From the NCBI GenBank assembly GCA_958295845.1, contig OY282376.1:5221022-5285021 (forward strand): a stretch of 64,000 nucleotides of DNA, given 5' to 3'. A model generated the notes under the pieces. It made no database searches and was not told the origin of the DNA. It worked only from the letters and a program-made list of their open reading frames with translations. The translations under genes were made by a program, and so were the position numbers. Origin of the DNA: Caldilineaceae bacterium (lineage in GTDB: Bacteria; Chloroflexota; Anaerolineae; Caldilineales; Caldilineaceae). Below are positions 7,116 through 62,241 of this stretch, in pieces. Each line of letters begins with the position of its first letter. Position 1 is the first letter of the stretch.

Positions 7116-7121
7116 GAGGGC

Positions 7122-33476: not shown

Positions 33477-34571
33477 CTATATCTGACCTCTATCCAGCAT
33501 ATCTCCGAACGGATTGTCGCGGATCTGCAGCGGGAAGTCGACGCGCGCCAAGCCCCGCCGCTGCGATTCATAGACGCCCATGATCATTTCCAGCGCGGCG
33601 CGGCCCTGCCGCCCGCTCGAGATGCTCTCGCGGTCGTTCTCGATGCAGTCGACCAGGTCGGTGACCGCGTTGATGGTGGCGTTGTCCCGTTGGGTGGGGA
33701 CAGGCTCCCACTCGACCGGCTCGGTGCGCCCGCGCCAGCGGTGCAGATAGGGTTCCCAGGCCCACCCGCCCATACTCCCCATGCTGTTGCGCGCGCCGTG
33801 CTGGATTACGAGGCGGCCTTCGTCGCCTTCGATCAGGATTTCGAACGTGCCGTAGCGGCGCCGTCCGCCCGACTCGAAGAAGAAGAGGCAGTCGCTGTCC
33901 ATGCGGAACAGGCCGGCGCCGAGGTCCTCGATTGTGATTGCCTTGTTGCCCCGCTCCACCGTGGCGAAAACCCACTCCGGATCGCCGGCGTAGAAGCGGA
34001 TAATATCGGTCAGGTGGGTGCCATTGTGCATCAGCTCGCCGCCGCCCGCGGTCACGAACTGCGAATGCCAGCTGCTGGGATCGCGTTGATCGGTCGAGAG
34101 CATATTGGCGCGGATGGTGCGCAGATTGCCGATGTCGCCGCGCTCGATCATCGCCTTCACTTCGATGAAGTTCTTCTCGAAGCGCATGGAGTGGTCGACA
34201 ACAAGCTTGGCGCCGGCGCGGTCGCAGGCCGCGATCATCCGGTCGGCCTCTGCCAGGTCGAAGGCCATGGGCTTTTCGCAGAAGATGCCGCGCGCGCCGG
34301 CCTCGGCTGCGGCAATCGTGGCGGGGCCGTGCAGATTGTCCAACGTGACGACGCTGACGATATCGACGTCGGCCTGTGTCAGCATCTCCTCATAGCTGCG
34401 ATAGCGCTGGGGGACCGACCAGCGTTCGCAGAAGAGATCGAGCTTATCGGGGTCGATGTCGGCGGCGGCCACCACCTGCGTATCGGGCACAAGCGTATAC
34501 GCCTCCGCGTGCAGATTCGCCATCCTGCCGCAGCCGACGAGCCCCACCGTATATTGCTTACCGTCGCTCAT
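33477..34571 (-). CDS. Gfo/Idh/MocA-family oxidoreductase, tandem copy 1
   Basis: 364 residues. The ATG at 34571 overlaps the permease stop (TCAT on the + strand) with AGGAG inside the permease gene, so it is translationally coupled. Motifs: GLVGCGRMANLHAEAY, EKP at 99-101 (FCEKPMAF), and the C-domain MHNGTHLTDIIRF in place of MHDVTHLFDLIRF of copy 2. Those changes sit in the substrate region, so the copies may have diverged in substrate while keeping the cofactor site. A longer reading frame extending into the permease gene is a shadow. Confidence 0.94.
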   Translation of the reverse strand: MSDGKQYTVGLVGCGRMANLHAEAYTLVPDTQVVAAADIDPDKLDLFCERWSVPQRYRSYEEMLTQADVDIVSVVTLDNLHGPATIAAAEAGARGIFCEKPMAFDLAEADRMIAACDRAGAKLVVDHSMRFEKNFIEVKAMIERGDIGNLRTIRANMLSTDQRDPSSWHSQFVTAGGGELMHNGTHLTDIIRFYAGDPEWVFATVERGNKAITIEDLGAGLFRMDSDCLFFFESGGRRRYGTFEILIEGDEGRLVIQHGARNSMGSMGGWAWEPYLHRWRGRTEPVEWEPVPTQRDNATINAVTDLVDCIENDRESISSGRQGRAALEMIMGVYESQRRGLARVDFPLQIRDNPFGDMLDRGQI

Positions 34572-38181: not shown

Positions 38182-38656
38182 ACCGCTTTTTTGGATCAGA
38201 CAGTCGGCGAGACATTCCTGAGAATATCGAGGCGCGTTCTGTTTTACAGTGTAGTCAAAGCTGGGAAGAGTGGGTCTGGCCTGGGAGGTGCCCAGGTTTT
38301 CGGGTAGTTTGGGCCGAGGTGCTCGTCTGGCAACAGGCAGATTGGGCCGTCGCGCCGCGAACTGCAGGGGAACGGCAGGGGTCGGGGGTCAGGGGTCAGG
38401 GGTCAGGGGTCAGGGGTCAGGGGTCAGGGGGGCGAAGTTTTTAGTAGTCAGTTTTTAGTTTTTAGTGAACTGCGGACGGCAGTGGTCAGTGGAGGGAGAC
38501 AACGGGTGGGGGGTAGACACTGTTGGCTAGACATGATGCTGGGGAAGAATACACACGGTGGCTAGTAAGGGCGGGGCGTTGCGGGGGCGCAGCCCCTGCA
38601 CAAGGGAGGGCCGAAGGCCCGGACGCCCAAAGGCGAGGAGAGAGTGAAGAGGAGTG
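38182..38656. repeat. Repeat-rich intergenic region
   Basis: No credible gene. It holds GGGTCAG heptamers (38378-38430), the 57-base AT-rich element (38436-38492) shared with 19446-19502, and copy B of the dispersed element (38516-38626). Confidence 0.8.
38516..38626. repeat. Dispersed intergenic element, copy B
   Basis: Matches 26911-27036 from GACACTGTTGGCTA to GGGCCGAAGGCCC, with a short deletion near the left end. One base of the GCGGGGGCGCAGCCCC(T)GC palindrome is changed. Confidence 0.8.
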
Positions 38657-44652: not shown

Positions 44653-45567
44653 ATGCTTAAGATCGGAATCGCCGACCTCGATACCTCGCACCCGGGCCGC
44701 TGGGTGCCGATCCTGCAGTCGTGGGACAGTGTGGCGGTGGTGGCCTGCTGGGACGGCGGCAGCGTACGGCCGCCGGGCTATGCTCAGCAGTTCGCGGCTG
44801 AGCACAACATCCCAGAAGTCGTGCCCGTGCTGGCGGACTTGATCCCGTTGGTGGATGTGGTCTTTGTTCAGAGTTGCAACTGGGACCTGCACGCGGAGCG
44901 CGTCAGGCCTTTCGTCGAGGCCGGCAAGGGCGTGTATATCGACAAGCCGCTGGCCGGGAACGTAGCCGATCTGATGCAACTAAGAGAGTGGGGGACGCAG
45001 GGCGCGAACATCATCGGCGGCTCATCGCTGCGCTGCTGTGAGGAGGTCAAGCGGATCCATGCGCAGACCCAGGGGAGCGACCTCCATACCATCTTTGCCA
45101 GCGGGCCGAACGACTTTTTCAACTACGGCATCCACGTAATCGAGATGGTCCAGGGTGTAATCGGCCTGGACCGCAGAACGCCCGCGGTCGCGGTCACGCA
45201 TCTCGGGAGCCGCGACTCGGTGCGGCTCCTCGTCGATTACCAGGACGGCCTGCAGGCGGTGCTCGAGTTGCAAGCCGCGGCAGGTTTTTCTCTGGCCGTC
45301 AGCGCCGCCAACGGGCACTGGTCGGCTACCGTCCAGAGTGACTTCTACCGCGCGCTCCTGCAGGACGTGGTCGCCCACTTCCGCGGCGAGAGGCCATTTC
45401 CTGCCGACATCGACATGCTATGCGAAGCGGTGATGGTCCTGCTGGCGGGTCGCGAGAGCGTACGCCGCGGGCGGCTCACGCCTGTTCGCATTGACGAGCT
45501 CTCTGCGGACGCGCCCGGTTTTGACGGCCACAGCTTTACCGAGGAATATCGCGCGGCCATGGGTTGA
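44653..45567 (+). CDS. Gfo/Idh/MocA-like oxidoreductase, short divergent form
   Basis: 304 residues, shorter than the 364-residue pair at 32-34 kb. The N-terminal nucleotide fold is altered (IGIADLDTSHPGRW instead of the GxGxxG loop) and the EKP motif is IDKPLAG. The C-terminal part retains FFNYGIHVIEMVQG. The altered loop suggests a changed cofactor mode. It ends only nine bases before the convergent FAD oxidoreductase stop; part of its 3' end was copied to 47115-47181. Confidence 0.83.
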   Translation: MLKIGIADLDTSHPGRWVPILQSWDSVAVVACWDGGSVRPPGYAQQFAAEHNIPEVVPVLADLIPLVDVVFVQSCNWDLHAERVRPFVEAGKGVYIDKPLAGNVADLMQLREWGTQGANIIGGSSLRCCEEVKRIHAQTQGSDLHTIFASGPNDFFNYGIHVIEMVQGVIGLDRRTPAVAVTHLGSRDSVRLLVDYQDGLQAVLELQAAAGFSLAVSAANGHWSATVQSDFYRALLQDVVAHFRGERPFPADIDMLCEAVMVLLAGRESVRRGRLTPVRIDELSADAPGFDGHSFTEEYRAAMG

Positions 45568-45576
45568 CTTAGCGTA

Positions 45577-46983
45577 TCAACTGCGCATACCCCAGACGCT
45601 GATCGCCTTCTCAACAAAGGCTGGAATTCCAATTTGTCCCCGTATCTCGTCGACATCCACGTTGGCGTAGACCGCGCCATCCTGCAACGCCAGCGCCGAG
45701 GCCACGCCGGCAGCCTCCCCCAGCGCCATCATGGTGCGCGAGAGACGGCATGAGGAGGCGGCAATGTGGGAGAAGGAGGCACCTCGCGACGCGGCGATCA
45801 GGTTGTCATATTCTTTGGGCAGCAGGCAGCTGTAGGGGATGCCGTAGGGTTGCTCCAGGTGTTTGCGCTTGCCGCCTCTGAGATTGCGCTCACCATGTGT
45901 ATCCAGTGCATGGTCGGCGAGAGCGATGATCTCCTCACGCCGCGACTGGCACAGGAGGCCGGCGCGCACGTCCTGTTCGCGCAGTACGTAGCGGCCCACC
46001 AGCCGGTGCGATTCGCGGATGCCTACGAGGGGAAACATGCTCTCAAAGCGATAGCGATCGAAGCCGTAGTCAGTTTGCATGCGGCGCCAGTGGGCGTGCA
46101 TGCGCGCCTGGGCGATGGCTTGGGCTTCAGGATAGGGCATACTGTGGAACTCCGCGCCCTCCATAGTCGGCAGCGCATTCACGCACAGGTCTCCGTTGGG
46201 ATATTCGGTAATGTGGGCGGCGGGCGTATGGGTAGCCAGCCAGTCCTGGATTTCGGGGGCGCGGGCCGAGGCCGGCAGCTCATCCACTCCCGCTTCGGCA
46301 ACCGGCGTTACGCGAAAGACCTGCGAGATACCGTTGACAATGGGGGAGGCGCTATCAGGGGCCGATGGCTCCTGGTAGAGGTCGTGCGGCTCCTCGCCGA
46401 AGGCCATGCTGCACTCGGCGGCCCGGGCCAGGTGGCAGCCGCCGGAGCAGTCGATGAAGAGCTGGCTGCGAACGGTATAGGGAGGGCCACCGTCAAGCGG
46501 CTGGGCTGTGATGGAGACGATCCGGTTGCCCTGCACGCTGACGTCGGTAAAGCGGGTGCGGTAACGGATTTCGACGCCGGCTTCGCGCAGCATCGTGTGC
46601 ATGGCCTCGGCCATGGCGTCCGGCTCGAAGTGGACGCGGCGGACTTCGAGTTTGGTCAGACCGGCGGTGCGCAGCGTGCTCTCGTAGGCGCTATGGGGAT
46701 CGATGCGCGAGAAGCCGTAGGGTTCTTCCTTGCTGTAACGGTGCACGATCTTGCCGACGCCGATGGCATCGGAGGCCAGCCGGGCATAGAGCTCATAGTG
46801 CACGCCGGGCCCGCTGATCCCTGCCTGCCAGACGTTGACGCCGCCAACGGTGGAGGTACCGCCGAGTTGGGCCATGCTGTCCAGCAGGAGAATGCGCGCG
46901 TTGGGGTCGGCGCGCGCGGCGCGAATTGCGGCGCCAAAGCCGCCGGAGCCGCCGCCGATGATCACAATATCAGCCTCGATCAT
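45577..46983 (-). CDS. FAD-dependent oxidoreductase, tandem copy 1
   Basis: 468 residues. AGGAG precedes the ATG at 46983. N-terminal dinucleotide-binding motif IVIIGGGSGGFGAAIRAAR (6-24), then a GGTSTVGGVN flavin-contact turn and the SQLFIDCSGGCHLARAA segment of the FAD_oxidored-type family. No signal peptide. Such genes often accompany sugar ABC operons and may oxidise or dehydrogenate sugars or polyols; the precise reaction is unknown. Nearly the same as copy 2 over much of its length, with differences clustered in 48-60 and 75-120. Confidence 0.9.
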   Translation of the reverse strand: MIEADIVIIGGGSGGFGAAIRAARADPNARILLLDSMAQLGGTSTVGGVNVWQAGISGPGVHYELYARLASDAIGVGKIVHRYSKEEPYGFSRIDPHSAYESTLRTAGLTKLEVRRVHFEPDAMAEAMHTMLREAGVEIRYRTRFTDVSVQGNRIVSITAQPLDGGPPYTVRSQLFIDCSGGCHLARAAECSMAFGEEPHDLYQEPSAPDSASPIVNGISQVFRVTPVAEAGVDELPASARAPEIQDWLATHTPAAHITEYPNGDLCVNALPTMEGAEFHSMPYPEAQAIAQARMHAHWRRMQTDYGFDRYRFESMFPLVGIRESHRLVGRYVLREQDVRAGLLCQSRREEIIALADHALDTHGERNLRGGKRKHLEQPYGIPYSCLLPKEYDNLIAASRGASFSHIAASSCRLSRTMMALGEAAGVASALALQDGAVYANVDVDEIRGQIGIPAFVEKAISVWGMRS

Positions 46984-47191
46984 ACATTCGCTCCTAAGAA
47001 ACAGAACGATGGCCGGGACGATTGTCTCCGGCCATCATGTCGGCAGTTCAGGTCAGCCCATTATCCAGACTGGCGATTGCCGCGGCCCTCGATTGACGGC
47101 ATCGATATGGTTGAGAGGGTAGACGCGCCCGGCTTCTACCGCCCCAGCTTCACCGCCGACTACCGCGCCCGCGCGGGTTGAGCCGGTTGCG
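46984..47191. pseudogene. Duplication scar: binding-protein 3' end joined to Gfo/Idh/MocA 3' end
   Basis: 47051-47112 aligns with the 3' end of the sugar-binding protein gene (48727-48789) with about three quarters identity and one indel. 47115-47181 aligns with the 3' end of the Gfo/Idh/MocA gene (45505-45567) and still reads DAPGFYRPSFTADYRARAG and stop. A hairpin GATGGCCGG/CCGGCCATC (47008-47036) sits where the binding-protein hairpin (48634-48665) sits in the intact copy. This is the fused border of a tandem duplication. Confidence 0.8.
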
Positions 47192-48598
47192 TCAGTTCCG
47201 CATACCCCAGACACTGATCGCCTTCTCAACGAAGGCTGGAATTCCAATCTGTCCTCGAATCTCGTCGACATCCACGTCGGCGTAGACCGCGCCATCCCGC
47301 AACGCCAGTGCCGAGGCCACACCGGCAGCCTCACCCAGCGCCATCATTGTGCGCGACAACCGGCATGAAGAGGCGGCAATGTGTGAGAAGGATGCGCCCC
47401 GCGACGCGGCGATCAGATTGTCATACTCTGCGGGCAGCAGGCAGCTGTAGGGGATGCCGTAGGGCTGCTCCAACTCCTTGAGCTTGACGCCTCTGACATT
47501 GCGTTCGCCGTGGGTATCCAGGGGATGGTCGGCCACGGCGATGATCTCGTCCTGCCGCGACTGGCGCAGAAGGCCGGCGCGCACGTCCTGTTCGCGCAGC
47601 ACGTAGCGGCCTACCAGCCGGTGCGATTCGCGGATGCCTACGAGGGGAAACATGCTCTTGAAACGGTAGCGATCGAAGCCGTAGTCGGTCTGCATGCGCC
47701 GCCAGTGTGCGTGCATGCGCGCCTGGGCGATGGCTTGCGCCTGGGGGTAGGGCATGCTGTGAAATTCGGCGCCTTCCATGGTGGGCAGCACGTTGATGCA
47801 CAGATCGCCATTGGGGTATTCGGTCACATGGGCGGCGGGCGTGTGTGTCGCCAGCCAGTCCTGGATCGAGGAGGCGCGAGAAGCGGGTGGGAGCTCATCG
47901 ACGCCGGCTTCGTCGGCCGGGGTCACGCGAAAGACCTGCGAGATGCCGTTGACAATTGGGGAGGCGCTGTCAGGGGCCGACGGCTCCTGGTAGAGGTCGT
48001 GCGGCTCCTCGCCAAAGGCCATGCTGCACTCGGCGGCCCGGGCCAGGTGGCAGCCGCCGGAGCAGTCGATGAAGAGCTGGCTGCGAACGGTATAGGGAGG
48101 GCCACCGTCAAGCGGCTGGGCTGTGATGGAGACGATCCGGTTGCCCTGCACGCTGACGTCGGTAAAGCGGGTACGGTAGCGGATATCGACGCCGGCTTCG
48201 CGCAGCATCGCGTCCATCGCTGCGGCCATGACGTCCGGCTCGAAGTGGACGCGGCGCACCTGCGGTTTGGGCAGGCCGGCGCGGCGCAGCGAGCTTTCAT
48301 AGGGGCTGTCCGGGTCGATGCGCGAGAAGCCGTAGGGCTCCTCCTTGCTCGAAAGGTGGACCGTCCTGCCCACGCCGATCGCGTTCGGGCTCAGGCGCGC
48401 GGCCAGCTCGTAATGCACGCCCGGCCCGCCGATCCCCGGCTCCCAGTTGTTGACGCCGCCAACGGTGGAGGTGCCGCCCAGTTGCGCCATGCTGTCGAGC
48501 AGGAGAATGCGCGCGTTTGGGTCGGCGCGCGCGGCGCGTATCGCTGCGCCAAAGCCGCCGGAACCGCCGCCTACTATCAGAATATCAGTCTCGATCAT
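47192..48598 (-). CDS. FAD-dependent oxidoreductase, tandem copy 2
   Basis: 468 residues from the ATG at 48598 (GGGGA upstream); an in-frame earlier start crosses the binding-protein hairpin and is rejected. Motif LIVGGGSGGFGAAIRAAR, then GGVNNWEPGIGG where copy 1 has GGVNVWQAGISG. Its C-terminal half is almost identical to copy 1. It lies downstream of the operon 3 binding-protein gene and is probably transcribed with it. Confidence 0.92.
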   Translation of the reverse strand: MIETDILIVGGGSGGFGAAIRAARADPNARILLLDSMAQLGGTSTVGGVNNWEPGIGGPGVHYELAARLSPNAIGVGRTVHLSSKEEPYGFSRIDPDSPYESSLRRAGLPKPQVRRVHFEPDVMAAAMDAMLREAGVDIRYRTRFTDVSVQGNRIVSITAQPLDGGPPYTVRSQLFIDCSGGCHLARAAECSMAFGEEPHDLYQEPSAPDSASPIVNGISQVFRVTPADEAGVDELPPASRASSIQDWLATHTPAAHVTEYPNGDLCINVLPTMEGAEFHSMPYPQAQAIAQARMHAHWRRMQTDYGFDRYRFKSMFPLVGIRESHRLVGRYVLREQDVRAGLLRQSRQDEIIAVADHPLDTHGERNVRGVKLKELEQPYGIPYSCLLPAEYDNLIAASRGASFSHIAASSCRLSRTMMALGEAAGVASALALRDGAVYADVDVDEIRGQIGIPAFVEKAISVWGMRN

Positions 48599-48633
48599 AT
48601 CAGTCCCCAGTTGCCATACCCCGGATGCCAATG

Positions 48634-48665
48634 ACCAGTGGCCTGGTATTTCGCAGGCCACTGGT
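48634..48665 (-). repeat. Intergenic hairpin after sugar-binding protein gene (operon 3)
   Basis: Perfect 12-bp stem ACCAGTGGCCTG (48634-48645) with CAGGCCACTGGT (48654-48665) and an eight-base loop. Adjacent 48681-48713 is a heptamer-like run (AGTGAAT units on the - strand). No T-tract. Confidence 0.8.
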
Positions 48666-48723
48666 TACTATCTACCACCCACTGTTCACTATTCACTATT
48701 CACTACCCACTGTCCTCTGCCGT

Positions 48724-50319
48724 CTACTCCAGCCCATCATCCGGGCTCATGATGGCCGCGGCCATCGCGTTGATCGTTTCGATATCGTTGAGGGCATTGA
48801 CAGCTTCGGTCACCCCAGCCAGGTTGTTTGCCTCCAACGCGGCCAGGAAACTTTCAAACTCCGCATCGATATCCAGATCCGGGTTCAGGACGACCCGGGC
48901 CGCGAACTCATTGGCCAGACTGTGCAGCGCCCCCAGGTCGTTCAGAATGGTTTCGTCATCGCGATCGACCAGGTAGTTGATATGCCGTTTTTCCTCCAGG
49001 GCTTCCTTCAGAACGCCCTGCACATAGCCCATCATTTCGTCGGAGACATCGATCCACTTCACATTGTCGCGCTGGTAATCGAAGTAGGCCGGCGGCTCAT
49101 TCTTGAACAGATAGTCGCGCGAGTACAGGTCGTATTGCGGATTGTCGTTCAGGATCGCATCGCGGCCGCGCGTCACGGGGACGCCGTCGACCAGGTCATA
49201 GGTGATGCCCTCGACACCCACCGTCATCAGCTCCCAGCCTTCGGTATATTGCCAGTTGACGACGCGGAAGAAGGCATCTGCCTCGGCGGCGGTGGCCGCG
49301 ATCGTCAGAGCGGTTCCGGTGCTCTGCGCGTTGGGCACGACCATCGGTCCGCTCGCGATACCGGTTGGGCCGGTCAGGCTGCAGATGTAGCCGGTGTCGG
49401 CATTGGCATCAGGATGGGCGTTGCGGATGGCCTCCAGGCGGAAATGCTGGAACCGCGGCCAGTCGGAGGTGACAGCTGTATTGCCGGCGTAGAATTTGAA
49501 CAGCCCGCGGTCGGTGGCGACCATGAAGGTGGGGTCCATCAGCCCATCGGCAAAGAGTTCTCGCACCCACTGCAGTCCATCTTTCAGGGCCGGCAGCGTA
49601 TTGGCGAAAACGAGCTGATCAGGATTATCCGGTGAAGGTACCCACGCCAGGTGATCGACGCCATGGGCGCCCAGGAAATGCTCCATCGACCAGGTAACAT
49701 TGTCCAGCCGGTTGGGCACGAAGGGGATCAACGGGTCGCCGATGTTGCCGGGGTCCTCGTCGCGAACCCGCTCGAGGAAGGTGCGGAACTCGGCCAGCGT
49801 TGTCGGCTCATCCATCCCCAACTTTTCCAGCCAGTCGGTGCGGTAGTGCAGGCAGCGCGGCAGATTGCCGGTGAGTCGGGGAATGTGGTAGATCATCCCG
49901 TCAGCCTGGCGGTTGTTCTCCCAGACTTCGGCCGGGAAGGCGTCGCGTACGGTCGGGTACTTGTCCAGATACTCATCGATCGGGATCAGCAGGCCGTCGT
50001 TGAGATACTGTTTGAACTGCCGCGTAGTCGGGTTGATGCGGATGACGTCGGGGTAGTCGCCAGCGGCCATCAGTACGTTGCGCTTCTCATCGTATTCGGG
50101 ACTGGGCACGAACTGATAGTCCATGTCCACGCCGGACCCCTCCTCGATCAACCCCACCCACTCGTTATCCGACACCCAGCTGTCGCCGATGCCCAGATAG
50201 ACGACGGTAACGTCCTCTGCCATCTCCTCCTGGGTGGTTGCGGCTGGCGCGGGCGCGCAGGCGCTCAGCAGGACCAAGGACACAATGATAAGCGGCAGAC
50301 ATAACTTAGCGCGTTTCAC
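48724..50319 (-). CDS. Sugar-binding lipoprotein, LplA-like ABC family 1 (operon 3)
   Basis: 531 residues starting at a GTG (50319), chosen because AAGGAGGAAG precedes it and a lipoprotein signal follows at once (lipobox LSAC, Cys21). Unlike the other two sugar-binding proteins it has no twin-Arg and would use Sec. The body contains MAAGDYPDVIRINPTTRQF, WLEKLGMDEPTTLAEF and MVPNAQ-like features typical of LplA/YtcQ-type binding proteins. Ligand is probably an oligosaccharide or uronate-type sugar; this is inference from the LplB/LplC-type permeases. Confidence 0.93.
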   Translation of the reverse strand: MKRAKLCLPLIIVSLVLLSACAPAPAATTQEEMAEDVTVVYLGIGDSWVSDNEWVGLIEEGSGVDMDYQFVPSPEYDEKRNVLMAAGDYPDVIRINPTTRQFKQYLNDGLLIPIDEYLDKYPTVRDAFPAEVWENNRQADGMIYHIPRLTGNLPRCLHYRTDWLEKLGMDEPTTLAEFRTFLERVRDEDPGNIGDPLIPFVPNRLDNVTWSMEHFLGAHGVDHLAWVPSPDNPDQLVFANTLPALKDGLQWVRELFADGLMDPTFMVATDRGLFKFYAGNTAVTSDWPRFQHFRLEAIRNAHPDANADTGYICSLTGPTGIASGPMVVPNAQSTGTALTIAATAAEADAFFRVVNWQYTEGWELMTVGVEGITYDLVDGVPVTRGRDAILNDNPQYDLYSRDYLFKNEPPAYFDYQRDNVKWIDVSDEMMGYVQGVLKEALEEKRHINYLVDRDDETILNDLGALHSLANEFAARVVLNPDLDIDAEFESFLAALEANNLAGVTEAVNALNDIETINAMAAAIMSPDDGLE

Positions 50320-50447
50320 AGAACTTCCTCCTTGTCTGTACTTTGGTTCGGTCACGCGAAAATCCAGACGGCGTATTCCTTCTGGAGGGACAGTCAATAA
50401 GGAAATCAGATATCGTCGCGTTATCACCTCCTTGGTTCTCGTTGCAG

Positions 50448-51371
50448 CTATCCTTTTTCGGCGCCCAGCACGATACCCTGCACGAAGAAACGTTGCACAA
50501 AGGGGTAAAGGAGGGCCATGGGCACGATAGCAGCGATCACCGTCGCTGCACGGATCGTAAGCTGGCTGACCTGGGCGTTGCCGTACATGTCCTGGTTGCT
50601 GAAGCCGATCTCGTTGAGGTTGGCCTGGATCACAACCGAGCGCAGCAGCACCTGCAAAGGCCATTTGGCCGGGTCGTAGATGTAGAAGATGCCGCGAAAG
50701 AACTCGTTCCAGTGGGAGACGGCGTAAAACAGCCCCATCGTCGCAATCGCCGGCAGTGACATCGGGATCACAATCTGAAAGAGGATGCGCATCTCGCTGG
50801 AGCCGTCCATGCGCGCCGACTCGATCACCGCGTCCGGCAGGTTCTCGAAGAAATTGCGCAACAGGATCAGAAAGAACACGTTGACCAGGGTCGGCCAGAT
50901 CATCGCCCACAGGCTGTTGATCAGGCCCAGGCTGCGTACCAGCATGAAGCCGGGTACGATGCCCGCGCTGAAGACGAAGGTAACCATGATGAAGAGCATG
51001 ATGAACTGCCGCCCCGGCAGGTCCCGCCGCGAGAGCGGGTAGGCTGCGGCTGACGTCACCAGAAGGTTGAGCGCGGTGCCCACCACGGTAATGAAGACGG
51101 TGACGCCAAAGGAACGTATCAGCGCTTCACCTTTGAAGATGAAGAGGTAGGAGTCCAGCGTAAAGCTGTGCGGCCACAGCAGCAGCACCGCCTGCGCGAC
51201 TTTTTCGGGGCTGCTCAGCGAGGCGTTGAGCGTGTGCCAGATCGGCAGCATACTGATGATGCCGAGCAGAAGCAGCACGCTGTAGATGATGGTTTCGGCC
51301 AGACGGTTGCTGTGCCATCGGGCCCGCAGCGGCTGCTCTTCGTAGTCTGTGGTTTCGATGTGCGCGCTCAT
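50448..51371 (-). CDS. Sugar ABC transporter permease (LplC/MalG-like, operon 3)
   Basis: 307 residues, six hydrophobic segments, EAA-type loop ESARMDGSSEMRILFQIVIP. The C-terminus FVQGIVLGAEKG is typical of LplC/YtcP proteins, supporting the LplA-like assignment for the binding protein that follows 128 bases downstream. Confidence 0.93.
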   Translation of the reverse strand: MSAHIETTDYEEQPLRARWHSNRLAETIIYSVLLLLGIISMLPIWHTLNASLSSPEKVAQAVLLLWPHSFTLDSYLFIFKGEALIRSFGVTVFITVVGTALNLLVTSAAAYPLSRRDLPGRQFIMLFIMVTFVFSAGIVPGFMLVRSLGLINSLWAMIWPTLVNVFFLILLRNFFENLPDAVIESARMDGSSEMRILFQIVIPMSLPAIATMGLFYAVSHWNEFFRGIFYIYDPAKWPLQVLLRSVVIQANLNEIGFSNQDMYGNAQVSQLTIRAATVIAAIVPMALLYPFVQRFFVQGIVLGAEKG

Positions 51372-51380
51372 CGGTCTGTG

Positions 51381-52370
51381 TTACCAGAGTGTCGGCTGAT
51401 CGGCGCGTTTGAGAATATAGTTGGTCATCACAATCATTATCGCCGCGATCACGGAGCGGAACAGGCCCACCGCGGTGGCGAGGCTGAAACGGCCGTCCAC
51501 CAGCCCGATGCGATAGATATAGGTATCGAGAATGTCGCCCACGGCGTAGACAGCCGGATTGTACATCACAAAGACCTGCTCAAAACCGGCCTCGAGAATG
51601 TTGCCCATGCTGAGGATAAAGACGATTCCCATGATCCCGCGCAGGCCGGGCAGCGTGATATATCTCGCCTGTTGAAGCCGGTTTGCCCCGTCGACCATGG
51701 CGGCTTCATAGATCGACGGATCGATCGAGGCGATCGCGGCCAGATAGACGATCGCGGCCCAGCCGAACTCCTTCATGATGTTGGTGATGACGAGGATGGT
51801 GCGGAAGTATTTGGGATTGACCAGCAGGGCCGGCATTTTCAACCCGATCGCTTCCAGCCCCTCCGGCACGGCGCCGCCCGGCCCGATGAAGAGCACCATG
51901 ATGCCGCCGTACACGACCCAGGACAGGAAATGCGGGAAATAGGTGACGGTCTGAATCGCGCGCTTGAAGAGCAGGTGGCGCACTTCGTTCAGGAGCAGCG
52001 CGAAGATTATAGGGACAGGGAAGCCGATGAAGAGTTTATAGAGGCTGATGATGACGGTGTTGCGGAAGACTTCGAGGAATTTGGGCAGGGCGAACAGGGT
52101 CTCGAAGTGTTGGAAGCCGACCCAGGGGCTGCCCAGAAATCCGCGCACCGGGGAATAGTTCTGGAAACCCATCACGAGCCCGCCCATGGGGATATAGCGG
52201 AATATGACAAAGAAGAGGATCGCGGGGAGGAGCAGGAGGTAGAGTTCGCGGTATTTCCAGGCGCGTCCCAACTCGCGTCGGAGGTGCCGGCGGCGGCTAT
52301 CGGGCCCCAGATGGCCCGTCGTGGAACTTTCGCTTACGCCCGGTTGTACATCCGTCCCGGCTGTTGCCAT
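51381..52370 (-). CDS. Sugar ABC transporter permease (LplB/YteP-like, operon 3)
   Basis: 329 residues from the ATG at 52370, which follows GGTGGAG; an in-frame GTG at 52379 is less likely. Features of the LplB subgroup: FRYIPMGGLVMGFQNYSP after the first helix and the EAA-type loop EAAMVDGANRLQQARYITLP. First gene of operon 3, nine bases before LplC. Confidence 0.93.
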   Translation of the reverse strand: MATAGTDVQPGVSESSTTGHLGPDSRRRHLRRELGRAWKYRELYLLLLPAILFFVIFRYIPMGGLVMGFQNYSPVRGFLGSPWVGFQHFETLFALPKFLEVFRNTVIISLYKLFIGFPVPIIFALLLNEVRHLLFKRAIQTVTYFPHFLSWVVYGGIMVLFIGPGGAVPEGLEAIGLKMPALLVNPKYFRTILVITNIMKEFGWAAIVYLAAIASIDPSIYEAAMVDGANRLQQARYITLPGLRGIMGIVFILSMGNILEAGFEQVFVMYNPAVYAVGDILDTYIYRIGLVDGRFSLATAVGLFRSVIAAIMIVMTNYILKRADQPTLW

Positions 52371-52585
52371 GTTCTCCACCCCGGTCCGACCAACGGAGGC
52401 TGCGTATCACCCTGGGAGAGAGTCTGTTGTGGGAATCTTTGCGATCGAAAAGAAACTACACTGCACAGGTACGAAAGTGCCGGAGATGGACGCATCCCCA
52501 AGTGTGGCCAACGAGCATTCGGGGCACTGTTCGGACAATCAGGAAGAAGGAAAAACCGCAGGAATGACGAAATCGGCCATGCGAA

Positions 52586-53524: not shown

Positions 53525-53565
53525 ACCACCCAGCCCCGGCACATCCGGGACTGGGCGGCTCCTGT
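53525..53565 (-). terminator. Terminator of FN3/LRR gene 1
   Basis: On the - strand: CCGCCCAGTCCCGG, short loop, CCGGGGCTGGGTGG and TTTTTC. Member of the terminator family at 52692 and 58210. Confidence 0.8.
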
Positions 53566-53583
53566 CTGGCGCCGGTGTTCTGG

Positions 53584-56500
53584 CTACTGGCAGTCGGACA
53601 GGCCAAGACTGTCGATGTCATTATTGGTTACGTCGTGCAGGGTTGGCGGCACACAGCCGGTCAGCTGATTTCCTGACAGTCGCAGCCAGATGAGATTGGT
53701 CAGATTGCCCAGCTGCGACGGGATGCTCCCGGTCAGATCGTTTAAGTCAAGGAAAAGGTTCGTCAGGTTTGTGAGATTGCCCAACTCCGACGGGATTGTT
53801 CCTGTCAAGTCATTTTTTGAAAGGAACAGGTGTTTCAGGTTGGAGAGGCTGCCCAGCTGTGACGGAATGCTCCCGCTCAGATCATTTGACTGAAGGAAAA
53901 GCCCTGTCAGTTTTGTGAGATTGCCCAGCTGCGACGGGATGCTCCCGGTCAGATCGTTGTGTGAAAGGTACAGGGATTCCAGGTTGGTAAGGCTCCCAAG
54001 CTGGGTCGGGATGGTGCCGTCCAGCTCGTTTCCACTCAGGGAAAGATGCTTCAGGTTTGTCAGGCCGGTCAACTGCGATGGGATGCCACCGGTCAGGTCG
54101 TTTTGCAGAAGGGACAGGTATTCCAGGTTGGACAGGCTGCCCAGCTGGGTCGGGATGGTACCGCTCAGCTTGTTATGACTAAGGGAAATCGTCTTCAGAT
54201 TTGTCAGGCCGCCCAGCTGAGACGGGATGGCTCCTGTCAGGTCGTTGTGTGAGAAGTCCAGATGTTGCAATGCAGAGAGATTCACCAGCTGTGTTGGGAT
54301 CGTCCCGCTGAGGTCATTGCCGCCGAGATTGAGGTTTTTGAGGCTGGAAAGATTCCCCAGCTGGGAAGGAATGGATCCACTCAGACTGTTAGCGCCCAGA
54401 TAGAGAGCCTCCAGGCTTGCGAGTTGACCCAGTTCGGTTGGAATTGTTCCAGTCAGATTGTTGACGTTAAGGATGAGCTTTGTGACACGGCCTTGATCGT
54501 TGGTGGTAACGCCATACCAGCTACTGAGGGGCCGTTCGCTCAGCCAGTTGAATTCTCGGGTCCAGGTGATCCCGCCCGTGGCGTTGTAGAGCGCTACCAG
54601 CGCCGCTCTGTCGGAACTGACGGAACCTGGTATAGGCGTGGCTGTCACCGTAGGTGTGGGCGTCGCGGTCGCGTTGGGATCAGACGTCGGGGTAATCGTT
54701 GGGGTCGCGGTGGAAGTCGGTGTAGCGGTTGTGGTTGGGGTCGCGGTAGGCGTATGCGTAGGATCCCCGCAGTATATGAGACCCGTTTCAGCCAGGTCAT
54801 CTATGGCAATGTCTCTGAGAACGGTAGGCAGGCATCCAGTCAGCGCGTTGCCTGCGAGCTTCAGGCCACTCAGGTCGGTCAGGTTTGCCAGTGTTGACGG
54901 CACCTCTCCACTCAGCTGATTGTTGTCAAGATGCAGCACGACGAGTGAGGAGAGGTCACCGAGCGATGAGGGGATAGAGCCGGTGAGCTGGTTGTTGGAG
55001 AGAGCCAGCCAGGTGAGTGAGGAGAGGTCGCCCAGCGATGAAGGGATGGACCCGCTGAACCGATTGTCGTCAAGGAACAGGTTCTTCAGGGTGGAGAGGC
55101 CGCTCAGATTAGAAGGAATCGTCCCGCTCAACCGGTTGTATGTGAGGACCAGATGCGTCAGAATGGGGAGTTCGGATATGGTTGAGGGGATTGACCCGCT
55201 AAGACTGTTGTAATAGAGGTACATAGACTGCAGATTGGACAGGCTGCCCAGCTCTGATGGGATTGACCCGGTCAGCCGATTCATGCCGAGATTCAGAGTC
55301 TGCAGATTGGACAGGCTGCCCAGCGCCGAGGGGATTGATCCGCTCAATCGGTTGGCCTCAAGATTCAGAAACTTCAGGTTGGAAAGGTTGCCCAGTTGTG
55401 ATGGAATCGACCCACTCAGCATGTTGCTGTTGAGATACATTGCCTCAAGGCTGGTGAGGTTGCCCAACTCGGATGGGATCGATCCAGTCAACTCGTTGCG
55501 TGAGATGTACAGCCTTTTCAGTTTTGTGAGGTTGCCCAGGGTGGAAGGTATCGAACCGTTCAGCTTGTTGTTGTTCAGGAAAAACTGTTCGAGATTGGTG
55601 AGATCTCCCAACGATGATGGTATTGATCCGGTCAGTTGGTTCCTGTCCATGTAGAGGCTTTTCAGACTGGAAAGGTTGCCCAGCGTTGACGGTATCGATC
55701 CGCTGAGGTCATTCCTCAAGAGGTGCAGTTCCTCGAGTTTGGAGAGTTGACCAAGTTCTGAAGGAATTGAACCGTTCAGCCTGTTTGCTCTGAAGTTCAG
55801 AGAGACGAGCCTGGAGAGTTGACCAATCTCGGGAGGAATTGAACCATGCAGATTGTTTCCTCTTTCCGGATCAGTGCCTCTGAGATTGAGACCAACTACG
55901 AAGCCGTCGTCGTCGGTGTCAACGCCATACCAGTGGCCAACGGGATGTTCGCTCAGCCAGTTGCCATTCGCTATCCAGTTGTCGCCGCCGGTTGCGTTAT
56001 AGAGGGCGACCAGCGCGGCCCTTTCCGCTATGATGGCAGCGTTAACGGTTGAAGCGTCCACCGTTGCAGTGGCTGTGGCGGTCGCCGTAAACGCCGGTGT
56101 AGCGGTTGGCGTGGCAGTTGGCGTCGGTGTGGCTGTTGCAGTCGGCGTCGCAGTCTCAGCAGGCGCTTGCTGCTGTTGTACCTGCTGCAGTTGTACCTGC
56201 TGTTGTACCTGTTGCTGCATCTGCTGCGTTGCTGTTGCCGTCGCCGTGGGCGTTGCTGTGTGCGGCTGTGTCGGGACATCGGCTCTGGCGAAATTTGACT
56301 GCTCGCTCAGGCCGCCTGCATTGCGCGCCTTTACTCGATAAACGTAGCGCGTTTCAGACGAAACCGTGTCGTCGACATACTGTGTAGCCGTGCTGCCGGT
56401 GTCGTCGGCTATGATCGTGAACTGCCCCTGCTCGTCCACAGCAGGATTGCGCCGCAGGATCTGGTATCCCGTAATACTGCTGTTACCAGGGTCGTCCCAG

Positions 56501-57498
56501 GTCAGCGTCACCGAACTGTGCGTTGCCGCTGTCTGCAGGTTCTGTGGCGCGGCCGGCGCGGCAACTGTCGGTGTTACCGTGGCCGTATTCTCAGGTGTAG
56601 ACGTATGTGTAACGGTTGGCGTCGAGGTCGACGTTGCAGTAGATGTTGCCGTGTGCGGCGCAGTCGGCACATTGGCTCTGACGTAGTCTGACCGCTCGCT
56701 CAGGCCCCCTGCATTCCTCGCCTTGACCCGATAAACGTAGCGCGTTTCGGACGAAACCGTGTCGTCGACATACTGTGTAGCCGTGCTGCCGGTGTCATCG
56801 GCTATGGTCGTGAACTGCCCCACAGCGTCCACAGCCGGATTGCGCCGCAGGATCTGGTAACCCGTGATGCTGCTGTCGCTGGGGTCGTTCCAGGTCAACG
56901 TCACCGAACTGTGCGTTGTCTCTGCCTGCAGGTTCTGGGGTTGCGCCGGCGCGGCAACTGTCGGCGTTGCCGTGGCCGTATTCTCAGGTATAGACGTGTG
57001 CGTAACGGTTGGCGTCGAGGTAGCAGTCGCAGCGGGGGTCGCGGTGGACGTTGCAGTCGATGTTGCCGTGGGCGCGGACGCAACCACGGCCTCAAACTGT
57101 TCGCTCCACCCTCCGGGACCGCCCTCGTCGTAGCGGGCGCGTAGCTTCACTTTGTAGCGCACTCCTTCGTCCAGACCGGTGATCGTGTACGAAGGCTCCG
57201 TCGGGAAGGCATTGCCCGACTCGTCTGTCCAGGTCTTGAAGTTCTCATCCACGCGGGCCCAGCTGATCCTGTAATCGCGGGGCGTATTTGTCGGCGCATC
57301 CCACGACACATCCAGCTCCCCCGGCTCGGTGCTTTCAACCCGCACCGTGCCGACCGCTTTCGTGTCATCCTGCGCAAATGCCGGCTGGCGCCCGGTCAGC
57401 ACAATCACAGCATATGCCAGGATCAGCGCCACAAACAGAATCAGGACTTTCCGTGTATTTCCAGGGAAGTAAGACGTACGCGTGTCCGACGGCTGCAT
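53584..57498 (-). CDS. Giant secreted FN3/LRR surface protein 1
   Basis: 1304 residues. AAGGAGC precedes the ATG at 57498. N-terminal signal or anchor helix (about 18-38, then GRQPAFAQ). Domain order: FN3 (about 48-135), Thr/Pro linker with TATSTATPT-like repeats, FN3 (about 185-278), linker, FN3 (about 300-395), Gln-rich stretch and Thr/Pro linker, a cap (AALVALYNATGGDNW), 14 plant-type 24-residue LRRs (consensus LxxNxLSGSIPSxLGNLSNL), Thr/Pro linker, a second cap and 12 LRRs, and a C-terminal CVPPTLHD cap with a final Cys. Both cap types resemble receptor-like LRR caps. Expected outside the cell as an adhesion or recognition protein. It is a tandem paralogue of the gene at 58267. Confidence 0.92.
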   Translation of the reverse strand: MQPSDTRTSYFPGNTRKVLILFVALILAYAVIVLTGRQPAFAQDDTKAVGTVRVESTEPGELDVSWDAPTNTPRDYRISWARVDENFKTWTDESGNAFPTEPSYTITGLDEGVRYKVKLRARYDEGGPGGWSEQFEAVVASAPTATSTATSTATPAATATSTPTVTHTSIPENTATATPTVAAPAQPQNLQAETTHSSVTLTWNDPSDSSITGYQILRRNPAVDAVGQFTTIADDTGSTATQYVDDTVSSETRYVYRVKARNAGGLSERSDYVRANVPTAPHTATSTATSTSTPTVTHTSTPENTATVTPTVAAPAAPQNLQTAATHSSVTLTWDDPGNSSITGYQILRRNPAVDEQGQFTIIADDTGSTATQYVDDTVSSETRYVYRVKARNAGGLSEQSNFARADVPTQPHTATPTATATATQQMQQQVQQQVQLQQVQQQQAPAETATPTATATPTPTATPTATPAFTATATATATVDASTVNAAIIAERAALVALYNATGGDNWIANGNWLSEHPVGHWYGVDTDDDGFVVGLNLRGTDPERGNNLHGSIPPEIGQLSRLVSLNFRANRLNGSIPSELGQLSKLEELHLLRNDLSGSIPSTLGNLSSLKSLYMDRNQLTGSIPSSLGDLTNLEQFFLNNNKLNGSIPSTLGNLTKLKRLYISRNELTGSIPSELGNLTSLEAMYLNSNMLSGSIPSQLGNLSNLKFLNLEANRLSGSIPSALGSLSNLQTLNLGMNRLTGSIPSELGSLSNLQSMYLYYNSLSGSIPSTISELPILTHLVLTYNRLSGTIPSNLSGLSTLKNLFLDDNRFSGSIPSSLGDLSSLTWLALSNNQLTGSIPSSLGDLSSLVVLHLDNNQLSGEVPSTLANLTDLSGLKLAGNALTGCLPTVLRDIAIDDLAETGLIYCGDPTHTPTATPTTTATPTSTATPTITPTSDPNATATPTPTVTATPIPGSVSSDRAALVALYNATGGITWTREFNWLSERPLSSWYGVTTNDQGRVTKLILNVNNLTGTIPTELGQLASLEALYLGANSLSGSIPSQLGNLSSLKNLNLGGNDLSGTIPTQLVNLSALQHLDFSHNDLTGAIPSQLGGLTNLKTISLSHNKLSGTIPTQLGSLSNLEYLSLLQNDLTGGIPSQLTGLTNLKHLSLSGNELDGTIPTQLGSLTNLESLYLSHNDLTGSIPSQLGNLTKLTGLFLQSNDLSGSIPSQLGSLSNLKHLFLSKNDLTGTIPSELGNLTNLTNLFLDLNDLTGSIPSQLGNLTNLIWLRLSGNQLTGCVPPTLHDVTNNDIDSLGLSDCQ

Positions 57499-57848
57499 CG
57501 AATCTGCTCCTTCGCGGTGCGTTCCTCGAAAAGACAGGCAGTAACAGTGCCTCCTTCTCCCATATGACCAGAACGCGGCTGGCTGACCGCTGGTACAGTT
57601 CTGTCGCTGTTTCCATGGCCATGTCCATGGCTGTGTCCATGGCTTAACCGACAGATTCTGGCGTTCAGAGTCTGTTGCAAAGAGGCCTGACTGCAGGAAA
57701 GGGCGCAGTCAGGACGACCTCGCCTCATGGGCCTTTTCCAGGGAAACTGCGGCTAAACTGGGGCACCTGCTGGAAGGGGGGCGCTTCGAAACTTCTGAAT
57801 ATCTTTGCGCCTTCAACTATGATAGCCGGAATGTACAGCATTTGTCCT
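57499..57848 (-). promoter_or_regulatory. Promoter and long conserved leader of FN3/LRR gene 1
   Basis: Leader of about 310 bases nearly identical to that of gene 2 (62242-62595). Candidate promoter: AGGACA (57848-57843), 18-base spacer, TATCAT (57824-57819). Within the leader, three 12-base units with CCATGG palindromes (57611-57645) are repeated in both copies. Confidence 0.5.
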
Positions 57849-58202
57849 GCAATTATGGACCAGATTTGGTCACTTAAGTGTTCCGATTTCGGTCCAGTCG
57901 CGTGTGGGTAGCAGTTCCACCTTCTGTCCTGCGACTCCGGGCTGACGAGCGTCCGTCTGGGCGGTCGGTTCTGCGGCCCTGCCTTGTGCGGGGGGGGGGG
58001 CCCGCAGCCTCCCCTGTTAACCCGCGCCGCAGCCGGACAGATCCCTCTAGAGTAATGTCTGGAAACACATGAAGGGATAGGTCAGCCGCCTGTTCACCGC
58101 CAGAACTGCCCCTCTGTTCGATGTGTTCCAGGCGCGCAGCTCCCGGACCCCTTATTCCGCGCGATCCAGTCGCCCTGCCACCACGCGCCCCACCCCGGAA
58201 CA
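57849..58202. other. Intergenic region without recognisable gene
   Basis: The right border of the duplicated leader (to about 57900) is followed by ~300 bases with no supported gene. A run of eleven G (57990-58000) then CCC is present. A 112-codon frame on the - strand is Arg/Gly-rich and has no ribosome site, so I do not call it. Confidence 0.6.
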
Positions 58203-58209
58203 GGAGAGC

Positions 58210-58250
58210 CACTCAGCCCCGGCACATCCGGGACTGGGCGGCTCCTGTCT
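58210..58250 (-). terminator. Hairpin after FN3/LRR gene 2 (terminator family, no T-tract)
   Basis: Same CCGCCCAGTCCCGG/CCGGGGCTGAGTGG hairpin as at 53525, but followed by CTCTCC rather than T residues, so termination here may be weak and transcription could run into gene 1. Confidence 0.65.
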
Positions 58251-58266
58251 GACGCCGGTGCCCTGG

Positions 58267-61200
58267 CTACTCGCAGTCGGACAAGCCAAGACTGTCGATG
58301 TCATTAGTCGTTACGTCACGCAGGGTTGGCGGCACACAGCCGGTCAACTGGTTTCCTGACAGGCCTATGGTGATGAGGTCGGTCAGATCGCCCAGTTGGG
58401 ACGGGATGCTGCCGGTCAGTTCGTTGTTATGAAGGAAAAGCCCCTTCAGCGTTGTGAGGTCGCCCAACTGCGGCGGAATGCTCCCACTCAAATTGTTCCT
58501 ATCTATATACAGGAATAGCACGATGGGAAGATTGCCCAGTTGGGACGGGATGCTGCCGGTCAGCTTGTTGCTACTAAGGTAAACCCCCCTCACCTTTGTG
58601 AGGCTGCCCAACTGGGACGGGATGCTCCCGGTCAGATCGTTGTGATTTAAGATCAAATATTCCAGGTTGGACAGGCTGCCCAGCTGCGAAGGGATGCTCC
58701 CGTCCAACTTGTTGCTTGCAAGGTCCAGTCTTTTCAGTTTGGAGAGGTTTCCCAGTTGGGACGGGATGCTGCCGGTCAGCCCGTTGCGACTTAAGGCCAA
58801 GCTTTCCAGGTTGGAAAAACTGCCCAGTTGCGACGGGATGGTCCCGGTCAGTTGGTTGCTGGATAGGTCCAGTTTTGTCAGTTTGGAGAGGTTTCCCAGT
58901 TGGGACGGGATGCTGCCGGTCAACCCGTTGCGATATAAGGTCAATCTTTCCAGGTTGGAAAGACTACCCAACTGCGACGGGATGGTCCCGGTCAGTTGGT
59001 TTCTGGATAGGTCAAGATAAACCAGATTCGTGAGGTTTCCCAGCTGCGACGGGATACTCCCGGTCAGGTTGTTTCGTGCAAAGTCCAGATTTCCCAGGTT
59101 GGATAGGCTGCCCAGCTGCGTTGGGATCGTCCCGCTGAGGTCATTGAAGCCAAGACCCAGACCTGTGAGGTTGGAAAGATTTCCCAGCGAGGAAGGAATG
59201 GACCCACTCAGATTGTTAAATGACAGATAGAGTTTCTCCAGGCTTGCGAGTTGACCCAGTCCGGTTGGAATTGTTCCAGTCAGATTATTGCTGCTAAGGA
59301 TGAGCTTTGTGACACGGCCTTGATCGTTGGTGGTAACGCCATACCATTCACTGAGGGGCTCGTTGCTCAGCCAGTTGGATTCTCGGGTCCAGCTGATCCC
59401 GCCCGTGGCGTTGTAGAGCGCTACAAGCGCCGCTCTGTCGGAACTGACGGAACCTGGTACAGGCGTGGCTGTCACCGTAGGTGTGGGCGTCGCGGTCGCG
59501 TTGGGAACAAGCGTCGGGGTAATCGTTGGGGTCGCGGTGGAAGTCGGTGTAGCGGTTGCCATCGGGGTCGCGGTAGGCGTATGCGTAGGATCTCCGCAGT
59601 ATATGAGACCCGTTTCAGCCAGGTCATTGATGCTAACGTCTCTAAGACCGGCCGGAAGGCATCCAGTCAGCGCGTTGCCTGCGAGCTTCAGGCCAGTCAG
59701 GTTGGTCAGGTCTTCCAGCGTTGACGGCACCTCTCCACTCAGCTGATTATTGGCAAGATGCAACAATATGATTGAGGAGAGGTCACCGAGCTCTGAAGGG
59801 ATAGACCCGCTGAGCTGGTTGTTGGAAAGAGCCAGCCAGGTGAGTGAGGAGAGGTTACCGAGTTCTGCAGGGATGGACCCGCTGAACCGATTTTCGTTAA
59901 GGAACAGGTTCTGCAGCGTGGAGAGGCCGCCCAGGTGCGAAGGAATCGTCCCGGTCAACCGGTTGTCTGTAAGGAGCAGATAACCCAGTTTGGGGAGGTC
60001 GGATATCTCTGATGGGATTGACCCGCTCAGATGATTATACGAGAGGCCCAGGGATGTCAGATTGGACAGGCTGCCCAACTCTGACGGGATTGACCCGGTC
60101 AACTGATTCATGCCGAGGTACAGAGTCTGCAGATTGGACAGGCTGCCCAACGCCGATGGGATTGATCCGCTCAGTCGGTTGGACTCAAGGTCCAGAAACT
60201 TCAGATTGGAAAGGTTGCCCAGTTCGGATGGGATCGCCCCACTCAGGCTGTTGCTGGTGAGATACATTTCCTCAAGGCTGGCGAGGTTGCCCAGTTCGGA
60301 TGGGATCGCTCCGCTCAGCTCGTTGTCTGAGAGCATCAGCCTTTTCAGATTGGTGAGGTTGCCCAGCGTGGAAGGTATGGAAAGGTTCAGACTGTTGTCC
60401 GACAGCGAAAGGTGTACGAGATTGGTGAGACTCCCCAACGATGATGGTATTGCTCCGGTCAGTTGGTTCCTTCCCAGGTAGAGGCTATCCAGACTGGAGA
60501 GGTTGCCCAGCGATGACGGTATCGACCCGCTGAGGTCATTCCTGGAGAGTTGCAGATGCTCGAGCTTGGAGAGTTGACCGAGTTCTGAAGGAACTGAACC
60601 GGTCAGCTTGTTTTCTCTGAGATTGAGGCGAACGACGAAGCCATCGTCGTCGGTGTCGACGCCATGCCAGGAATCGATGGGATTTTCGCTCAGCCAGTGT
60701 TGATTCTCTTTCCAGTTGTCGCCGTCGGTTGCGTTATAGAGAGCGACCAGCGCGGCCTTTTCCGCTATGGTTGCAGAGATAACGGTTGAAGCGTCCACCG
60801 TTGCAGTGGCTGTGGCGGTCGCCGTAAACGCCGGCGTAGCGGTATACGTGACAGTTGGCGTCGGTGTGGCTGTTGCAGTCGGCGTGGCAGTCTCAGCAGG
60901 CGCTTGCTGCTGTTGTACCTGCTGCAGTTGCACACGCAGCGTTGCTGTTGCCGTCGCCGTGGGCGTCGGTGTGTGCGGCTGTGTCGGGACATCGGCTCTG
61001 GCGTAGTTTGACTGCTCGCTCAGCCCCCCTGCATTCCTCGCTTTAACCCGATAGACGTAGCGCGTTTCAGACGAAACCGTGTCGTCGACATACTGTGTAG
61101 CCGTGCTGCCGGTGTCGTCAGCTATGATCGTGAACTGCCCCACGGCGTCCACAGCAGGATTGCGCCGCAGGATCTGGTAGCCCGTAATGCTGCTGTCGCT

Positions 61201-62241
61201 GGGGTCGTCCCAGGTTAAAGTTACCGAACTGTGCGTTGCCTCTGTCTGCAGGTTCTGTGGCGCGGCCGGCGCGGCAACTGTCGGTGTTGCCGTGGCCGTA
61301 TGCTCAGGTGTAGACGTGTGCGTAACGGTTGGCGTCGAAGTCGACGTTGACGTTCCAGTTGGCGTTTCAGTTGGCGTTGGTGTATGCGGCTGTGCCGGAA
61401 TATTGGCTCTGACGTAGTCGGACCGCTCGCTCAGGCCCCCTGCGTTCCTTGCCTTGACCCGATAAACGTAGCGCGTTTCGGACGAAATTGTTTCGTCGAC
61501 ATACTGTGTAGCCGTGCTGCCGGTGTCATCGGCGATGATCGTGAACTGCCCTACTGCATCTGCAGCACGGTCGCGCCGCAGGATCTGGTATCCCGTAATG
61601 CTGCTGTCGCTGGGGTCGTTCCAGGTCAACGTCACCGAACTGTGCGTTGTCTCTGCCTGCAGGTTCTGTGGCGCGGCCGGCGCCGCAACTGTCGGCGTTG
61701 CCGTGGCTGTATTCTCAGGTGTGGACGTGTGCGTAACGGTTGGCGTCGAGGTAGCAGTCGTAGTGGGGGTCGCGGTGGGGGTCGCGGTGGACGTTGCAGT
61801 CGATGTTGCCGTGGGCGCAGACGCAACCACGGCCTCAAACTGTTCGCTCCACCCTCCGGGTCCGCCCTCATCGTAGCGGGCGCGTAGCTTCACTTTGTAG
61901 CGCACCCCTTCGTCCAGACCGGTGATTGTGTACGAAGGCTCCGTCGGGAAGGCATTGCCCGACTCGTCTGTCCAGGTCTTGAAGTTCTCGCCCACGCGCG
62001 CCCAGCTGATCCTGTAATCGCGGGGGGTATTTGCCGGCGCATCCCACGACACATCCAGCTCCCCCGGCTCGGTGCTTTCAACCCGCACCGTGCCGACCGC
62101 TTTCGTGTCATCCTGCGCAAATGCCGGCTGGCGCCCGGTCAGCACAATCACAGCATATGCCAGGATCAGCGCCACAAACAGGACCAGGACTTTCCGTGCA
62201 TTTCCAGGGAAGTAAGACGTACGCGTGTCCGACGGCTGCAT
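58267..62241 (-). CDS. Giant secreted FN3/LRR surface protein 2
   Basis: 1324 residues from the ATG at 62241 with AAGGAGC; an earlier in-frame extension lies in the conserved leader and is rejected. Same architecture as gene 1: signal helix, three FN3 domains joined by Thr/Pro linkers (near-identical N-terminal 300 residues), a shorter Gln stretch, cap, 14 LRRs, linker, cap, then 14 LRRs (two more than gene 1) and the same Cys-containing C-cap. A 144-base tandem duplication equal to two LRRs is visible at about 58740-59030. The LRR part diverges more than the FN3 part, as expected for a ligand-contact surface. Function probably adhesion or recognition; ligand unknown. Confidence 0.92.
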   Translation of the reverse strand: MQPSDTRTSYFPGNARKVLVLFVALILAYAVIVLTGRQPAFAQDDTKAVGTVRVESTEPGELDVSWDAPANTPRDYRISWARVGENFKTWTDESGNAFPTEPSYTITGLDEGVRYKVKLRARYDEGGPGGWSEQFEAVVASAPTATSTATSTATPTATPTTTATSTPTVTHTSTPENTATATPTVAAPAAPQNLQAETTHSSVTLTWNDPSDSSITGYQILRRDRAADAVGQFTIIADDTGSTATQYVDETISSETRYVYRVKARNAGGLSERSDYVRANIPAQPHTPTPTETPTGTSTSTSTPTVTHTSTPEHTATATPTVAAPAAPQNLQTEATHSSVTLTWDDPSDSSITGYQILRRNPAVDAVGQFTIIADDTGSTATQYVDDTVSSETRYVYRVKARNAGGLSEQSNYARADVPTQPHTPTPTATATATLRVQLQQVQQQQAPAETATPTATATPTPTVTYTATPAFTATATATATVDASTVISATIAEKAALVALYNATDGDNWKENQHWLSENPIDSWHGVDTDDDGFVVRLNLRENKLTGSVPSELGQLSKLEHLQLSRNDLSGSIPSSLGNLSSLDSLYLGRNQLTGAIPSSLGSLTNLVHLSLSDNSLNLSIPSTLGNLTNLKRLMLSDNELSGAIPSELGNLASLEEMYLTSNSLSGAIPSELGNLSNLKFLDLESNRLSGSIPSALGSLSNLQTLYLGMNQLTGSIPSELGSLSNLTSLGLSYNHLSGSIPSEISDLPKLGYLLLTDNRLTGTIPSHLGGLSTLQNLFLNENRFSGSIPAELGNLSSLTWLALSNNQLSGSIPSELGDLSSIILLHLANNQLSGEVPSTLEDLTNLTGLKLAGNALTGCLPAGLRDVSINDLAETGLIYCGDPTHTPTATPMATATPTSTATPTITPTLVPNATATPTPTVTATPVPGSVSSDRAALVALYNATGGISWTRESNWLSNEPLSEWYGVTTNDQGRVTKLILSSNNLTGTIPTGLGQLASLEKLYLSFNNLSGSIPSSLGNLSNLTGLGLGFNDLSGTIPTQLGSLSNLGNLDFARNNLTGSIPSQLGNLTNLVYLDLSRNQLTGTIPSQLGSLSNLERLTLYRNGLTGSIPSQLGNLSKLTKLDLSSNQLTGTIPSQLGSFSNLESLALSRNGLTGSIPSQLGNLSKLKRLDLASNKLDGSIPSQLGSLSNLEYLILNHNDLTGSIPSQLGSLTKVRGVYLSSNKLTGSIPSQLGNLPIVLFLYIDRNNLSGSIPPQLGDLTTLKGLFLHNNELTGSIPSQLGDLTDLITIGLSGNQLTGCVPPTLRDVTTNDIDSLGLSDCE

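Follow-up and report, generated by a model that had tools for sequence, protein, structure and literature searches.

The window analysed here, a stretch of 64,000 nucleotides, lies in a 5.40-Mb single contig, a Caldilineaceae chromosome whose kin are Caldilineaceae MAGs. The locus of interest is an operon on the minus strand which, read from right to left, comprises two ABC permease genes (50448-51371 and 51381-52379, with a match to PF00528 for the first; their order is conserved in relatives), the gene for the solute-binding protein of the transporter (48724-50910, PF01547) and two FAD oxidoreductase genes. The open reading frame of the solute-binding protein overlaps a permease gene and its called 5' end may be too long. 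Converging on the operon from the left are epimerase-like, DHDPS-like and Gfo/Idh/MocA-type genes, the last of which, an oxidoreductase gene (44653-45567, plus strand, Pfam PF01408), is the immediate left neighbour of the pair. The final 60 nt of this gene and the final 70 nt or so of the solute-binding protein gene both fall within the duplicated unit described below.

The two FAD oxidoreductase genes, both on the minus strand, are a diverged copy, which we call copy a (45577-46983), and a conservative copy, copy b (47192-48598). They lie collinear and head to tail with 87.2% identity. A longer reading frame of copy b opens at a GTG at 48661, and it is the ATG at 48598 that corresponds to the start of copy a. 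Both are members of the PF12831 FAD_oxidored family, which they match over nearly its full length with scores of 251 and 249 bits (gathering cut-off 27) and E-values of 4e-74 for copy a and 1e-73 for copy b. Searches for a curated NCBIfam family or a solved PDB structure matching either copy over its full length found none; nor did NCBIfam or PDB yield a close characterised relative, and a literature search for PF12831 enzymes found none. It is the operon context alone, with its ABC transporter and Gfo/Idh/MocA genes, that hints at sugar oxidation by the pair. In another Caldilineaceae genus three PF12831 genes stand in a row (G030:C130:13663-18537), which shows that the family forms arrays in other places as well.

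The 208-bp spacer between the copies (46984-47191) is a duplication scar that aligns to both neighbours. First comes a hairpin, then a decayed duplicate of the solute-binding protein gene's 3' end (47054-47118, minus strand, aligning with 48730-48795), and beyond the join lies the duplicated Gfo/Idh/MocA 3' end (47122-47181, plus strand, 75% identical to 45508-45567). In local alignment the first of these scraps, from 47054 to about 47118, scores 66 against its parent, where the best of 1000 dinucleotide shuffles scores 35, and the second scores 60, where the best of 1000 shuffles scores 38. A sequence-only reading of this DNA had proposed a tandem duplication of an FAD oxidoreductase, with a spacer holding both of these gene ends and a hairpin at the matching place, and a unit of about 1.6 kb that took in parts of both neighbours. 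All of this is borne out by the identity of the copies, by the two-sided scar, both sides of which align far above the shuffles, by the folding described below and by a unit that measures approximately 1.61 kb (offset 1614-1615); the coordinates given there for the pair were also correct to within a few bases.

The hairpin in the scar lies upstream of copy a (47000-47050, minus strand), where the segment 46990-47055 folds with -31.6 kcal/mol (z -5.3). Its counterpart in the corresponding position before copy b (48620-48665, minus strand) has a 12-bp stem, in a region that as a whole folds only weakly better than shuffles (z -0.9). The relatives whose sequences were folded also have a hairpin at this place; between copies a and b, however, its sequence is not the same. 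The hairpin in the scar may be a transcript-end or stability structure. Beside the hairpin between the solute-binding protein gene and copy b there are short repeats of CACTATT type (48680-48712), which vary among relatives.

The novel joint itself is located at 47116-47124, within the sequence GTTGAGAGGGTAGACGCGCCCGG at about 47110-47132. This sequence is identical in a separate assembly of the same genus, L011 (WTGY01000150.1). The borders of the parent sequences, as judged from relatives, have only GAC in common at the join. A search for short direct repeats at the unit borders, which the same reading had proposed, found none beyond this GAC, so the borders lack the repeats expected of a repeat-mediated (homologous) duplication. 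Some 33 nt around the join (47101-47132) differ from L011 at a single base and the rest of the scar is approximately 75-80% identical; to judge from this conservation, the stretch could be a promoter for copy a or serve it in some other way.

Sixteen congeners were compared, six of which possess the FAD gene. L011 has the same FAD pair with the identical 23-nt join. The other five (L012-L016) have a single FAD gene in the same neighbourhood, and display an unduplicated arrangement whose genes run permeases-SBP-FAD-(Gfo)-(DHDPS)-epimerase, as they do here. The Gfo gene is intact in two of these five; it is missing in L014 and a remnant in L015, so this left neighbour is dispensable. In the gene tree the a copies of this genome and of L011 form a clade (100/99), and copy b of this genome joins the single-copy orthologues of L012 and L013 (100/100). 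Between this genome and L011 the a copies are 87.4% identical and the b copies 86.1%; since the two genomes are generally 85-90% identical, the pair has been inherited vertically. A pair shared with an identical join in L011, together with a single gene in five congeners, therefore represents one old event and not recent copy-number variation.

The flanks of the pair tell a different story. The right flank is 97-99% identical between this genome and L012/L013, whereas elsewhere the identity drops, to roughly 77-86% across a sampled 20-kb region and to 84-94% across three core genes. By the AU test, a grouping of this genome with L011 is rejected for both flanks, and a grouping of this genome with L012 and L013 is rejected for concatenated rpoB, gyrB and IF-2. 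The individual core-gene trees disagree: gyrB sides with the flanks, placing this genome with L012/L013, and rpoB and IF-2 side with the duplication. Copy b is 96-100% identical to L012 over its first 480 nt and 83-94% identical over the remainder, and because the identity falls there we place an exchange breakpoint approximately 480 nt into copy b. On the strength of these identities, the pair is most likely native, with its flanks exchanged with the L012/L013 lineage. On this right side, the genes for the solute-binding protein and the permeases (48724-52379) match L012/L013 at 97-99%, far more closely than the genome does as a whole, which points to a recent exchange of the transporter operon between lineages of the genus.

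The main alternative is an older duplication, in the ancestor of the six close congeners, with subsequent loss of copy a in L012/L013, and perhaps in L014/L015, by unequal crossing-over. This would account for the flank trees that place this genome with L012/L013 and for the conflict between gene trees, among which the core-gene concatenate leaves this genome and L011 unsupported as sisters (54/18); moreover, the single copy of L012/L013 combines a copy-a-like derived 3' end with a copy-b-like body, as a collapse would leave. Set against it, rpoB, IF-2 and the 20-kb sample put this genome nearer to L011, the flanks look exchanged, given that their identity to L012/L013 exceeds the genome average, and a search of the single-copy genomes for a remnant of the scar found none. 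We regard such a loss as possible, but unlikely.

The best explanation, to which we assign a probability of roughly 87%, is one ancestral tandem duplication almost without homology, followed by divergence, gene conversion and flank exchange. The duplication step is plain from the two-sided scar, from a join that this genome and L011 share exactly, and from the single-copy relatives, whose gene order is the same. In the common ancestor of this genome and the congener CO36405bin_14, recombination with hardly any homology (only GAC) would have made a tandem duplicate of a 1.61-kb segment comprising one whole FAD oxidoreductase gene, the terminal 70 nt or so of the solute-binding protein gene and the terminal 60 nt of the Gfo/Idh/MocA gene. 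Non-homologous (short-homology) recombination is an established route of bacterial tandem gene duplication (PMC11721125; Reams and Roth 2015, as cited there). The cases described share with ours a head-to-tail unit, borders in neighbouring genes and little shared sequence at the join, but concern transient amplification, whereas the FAD pair is old and fixed (87% identity).

After the duplication both copies have been kept under purifying selection, as dN/dS is 0.11 between the a copies, 0.08 between the b copies and 0.14 between a and b. Local gene conversion between the copies followed later, as shown by a tract of 158 bp in copy b (48015-48172) that has an exact counterpart in copy a near 46400-46557; this is the longest identical run between them, and was reached by none of 5000 codon-column permutations. 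Later, too, homologous recombination would have swapped both flanks of the pair with a lineage resembling L012/L013, to judge from the identities given above. With its conservative and diverged copies, purifying selection and conversion tract, the FAD pair resembles known cases of paralogue duplication and divergence with interlocus gene conversion, from which it differs in nothing of principle.

The two copies have not changed equally. Copy a has 14 residues that are common to this genome and L011 and absent from seven other proteins, most of these positions being invariant in the rest of the subfamily, and copy b has no residues of its own; such one-sided change, with a dN/dS of 0.11 between the a copies, is the pattern of a diverging (neofunctionalising) paralogue. 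Copy a would have gained these residues after the duplication, mostly between residues 51 and 112, where nine of the 14 lie, including N51V, E53Q, P54A and G57S. Residues 50-57 read N-N-W-E-P-G-I-G and are otherwise invariant in the subfamily, and copy a has N-V-W-Q-A-G-I-S. Outside this subfamily and L009 (45% identical) the N-x-W-E-P-G motif is uninformative, distant Caldilineaceae members of PF12831 differing wholly there. An AlphaFold model based on nine close homologues had a pLDDT of 44 and was too poor to use. Because the private residues are so asymmetric (14 versus none), we infer a functional change in copy a: the pattern suggests that copy a changed function and copy b kept the old one, and copy a probably changed its substrate or partner. 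A more specific proposal, that copy a is a new enzyme with a new substrate by virtue of the changes at residues 50-57, and that the pair is retained while lineages swap the transporter operon, is tentative and, in our estimation, somewhat unlikely. If true, modules for uptake and for oxidation are mixed and matched in the evolution of these bacteria.

The sequence-only reading had further proposed that some local mechanism keeps duplicating enzymes of sugar oxidation here, on the grounds of a first duplication in the window with the same kind of scar. That duplication, of a Gfo/Idh/MocA gene (32296-33390 and 33477-34571), indeed has a two-sided scar; thus two whole-gene tandem duplications with such scars lie about 11 kb apart, and a third duplication, of leucine-rich-repeat proteins, follows at 53-62 kb, all of which could be taken as the mark of a recurrent hot spot. 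The proposed mechanism is nevertheless not supported, for several reasons. The first pair is doubled in 12 of the 16 congeners (with the second copy incomplete in two) and the FAD pair in one of 16, so the first duplication is older and separate. No repeat was found at the borders. Comparable pairs are also common elsewhere: 80 sampled stretches of 20 kb (1.6 Mb of chromosome) yielded approximately 16 tandem pairs of whole genes, 73-93% identical to each other. The families duplicated are mixed, and include M20 peptidase, Zn-dehydrogenase, DUF2207, Gfo/Idh/MocA, DUF1800, several binding-protein families, transporters, MR_MLE, desaturase-Rieske, MFS, GNAT and PhyH.

From this sample about 0.6 pairs are expected per 64 kb, and at least two in about one window in seven (approximately 13% of windows, by a Poisson estimate made by hand), which makes two pairs in one 64-kb window unremarkable. 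Scars are visible in a few of the sampled pairs, on both sides for DUF1800 and on one side for ATG22/MFS and DUF2207; units with bits of both neighbours are to be expected, since borders that fall at random can keep the two gene copies intact only in this way. We therefore consider a hot spot very unlikely. Separate transfer, by which the two FAD genes would be xenologues side by side, is less probable still; although the genus does exchange DNA at the FAD locus, the copies are closely related and collinear, the spacer between them holds pieces duplicated from both neighbours, and the join is shared with L011; the scar already refutes transfer as the origin of the pair. An assembly artefact, to which tandem repeats are prone, is the least credible reading of all and is already refuted: 180 of 1404 sites distinguish the copies, the spacer has diverged, and a second assembly shows this arrangement as well.

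The FAD pair is thus an ordinary case of tandem duplication and divergence for which no special local machinery is needed, and it offers no evidence for a new mechanism. Its value lies in showing cleanly, in uncultured Caldilineaceae, how a gene is duplicated and diverges, for the join, the unduplicated state, the conversion and the flank exchange can all be read. Sponge-associated Caldilineae are reported to have a massively expanded carbohydrate repertoire (PMC6306507); an expansion of this kind could proceed in part through tandem whole-gene duplication, of which our sample shows about ten pairs per Mb.

Two further features of the window may be recorded. A dispersed G+C-rich repeat (core GGCGTTGCGGGGGCGCAGCCCC) occurs at 7120-7188, 19392-19529, 26977-27036 and 38385-38631, its commonest 20-mer being present in about 77 copies in the 1.66 Mb sampled; considered as a driver of the duplications, it was rejected, as no copy lies at the borders. 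A repeat at L120:7360-7585 occurs dozens of times in the congeners G010 and G015. The third duplication (53526-62666) comprises two large leucine-rich-repeat/fn3 proteins, encoded at 53584-57498 and 58267-62451, which are approximately 82% identical over several kb.
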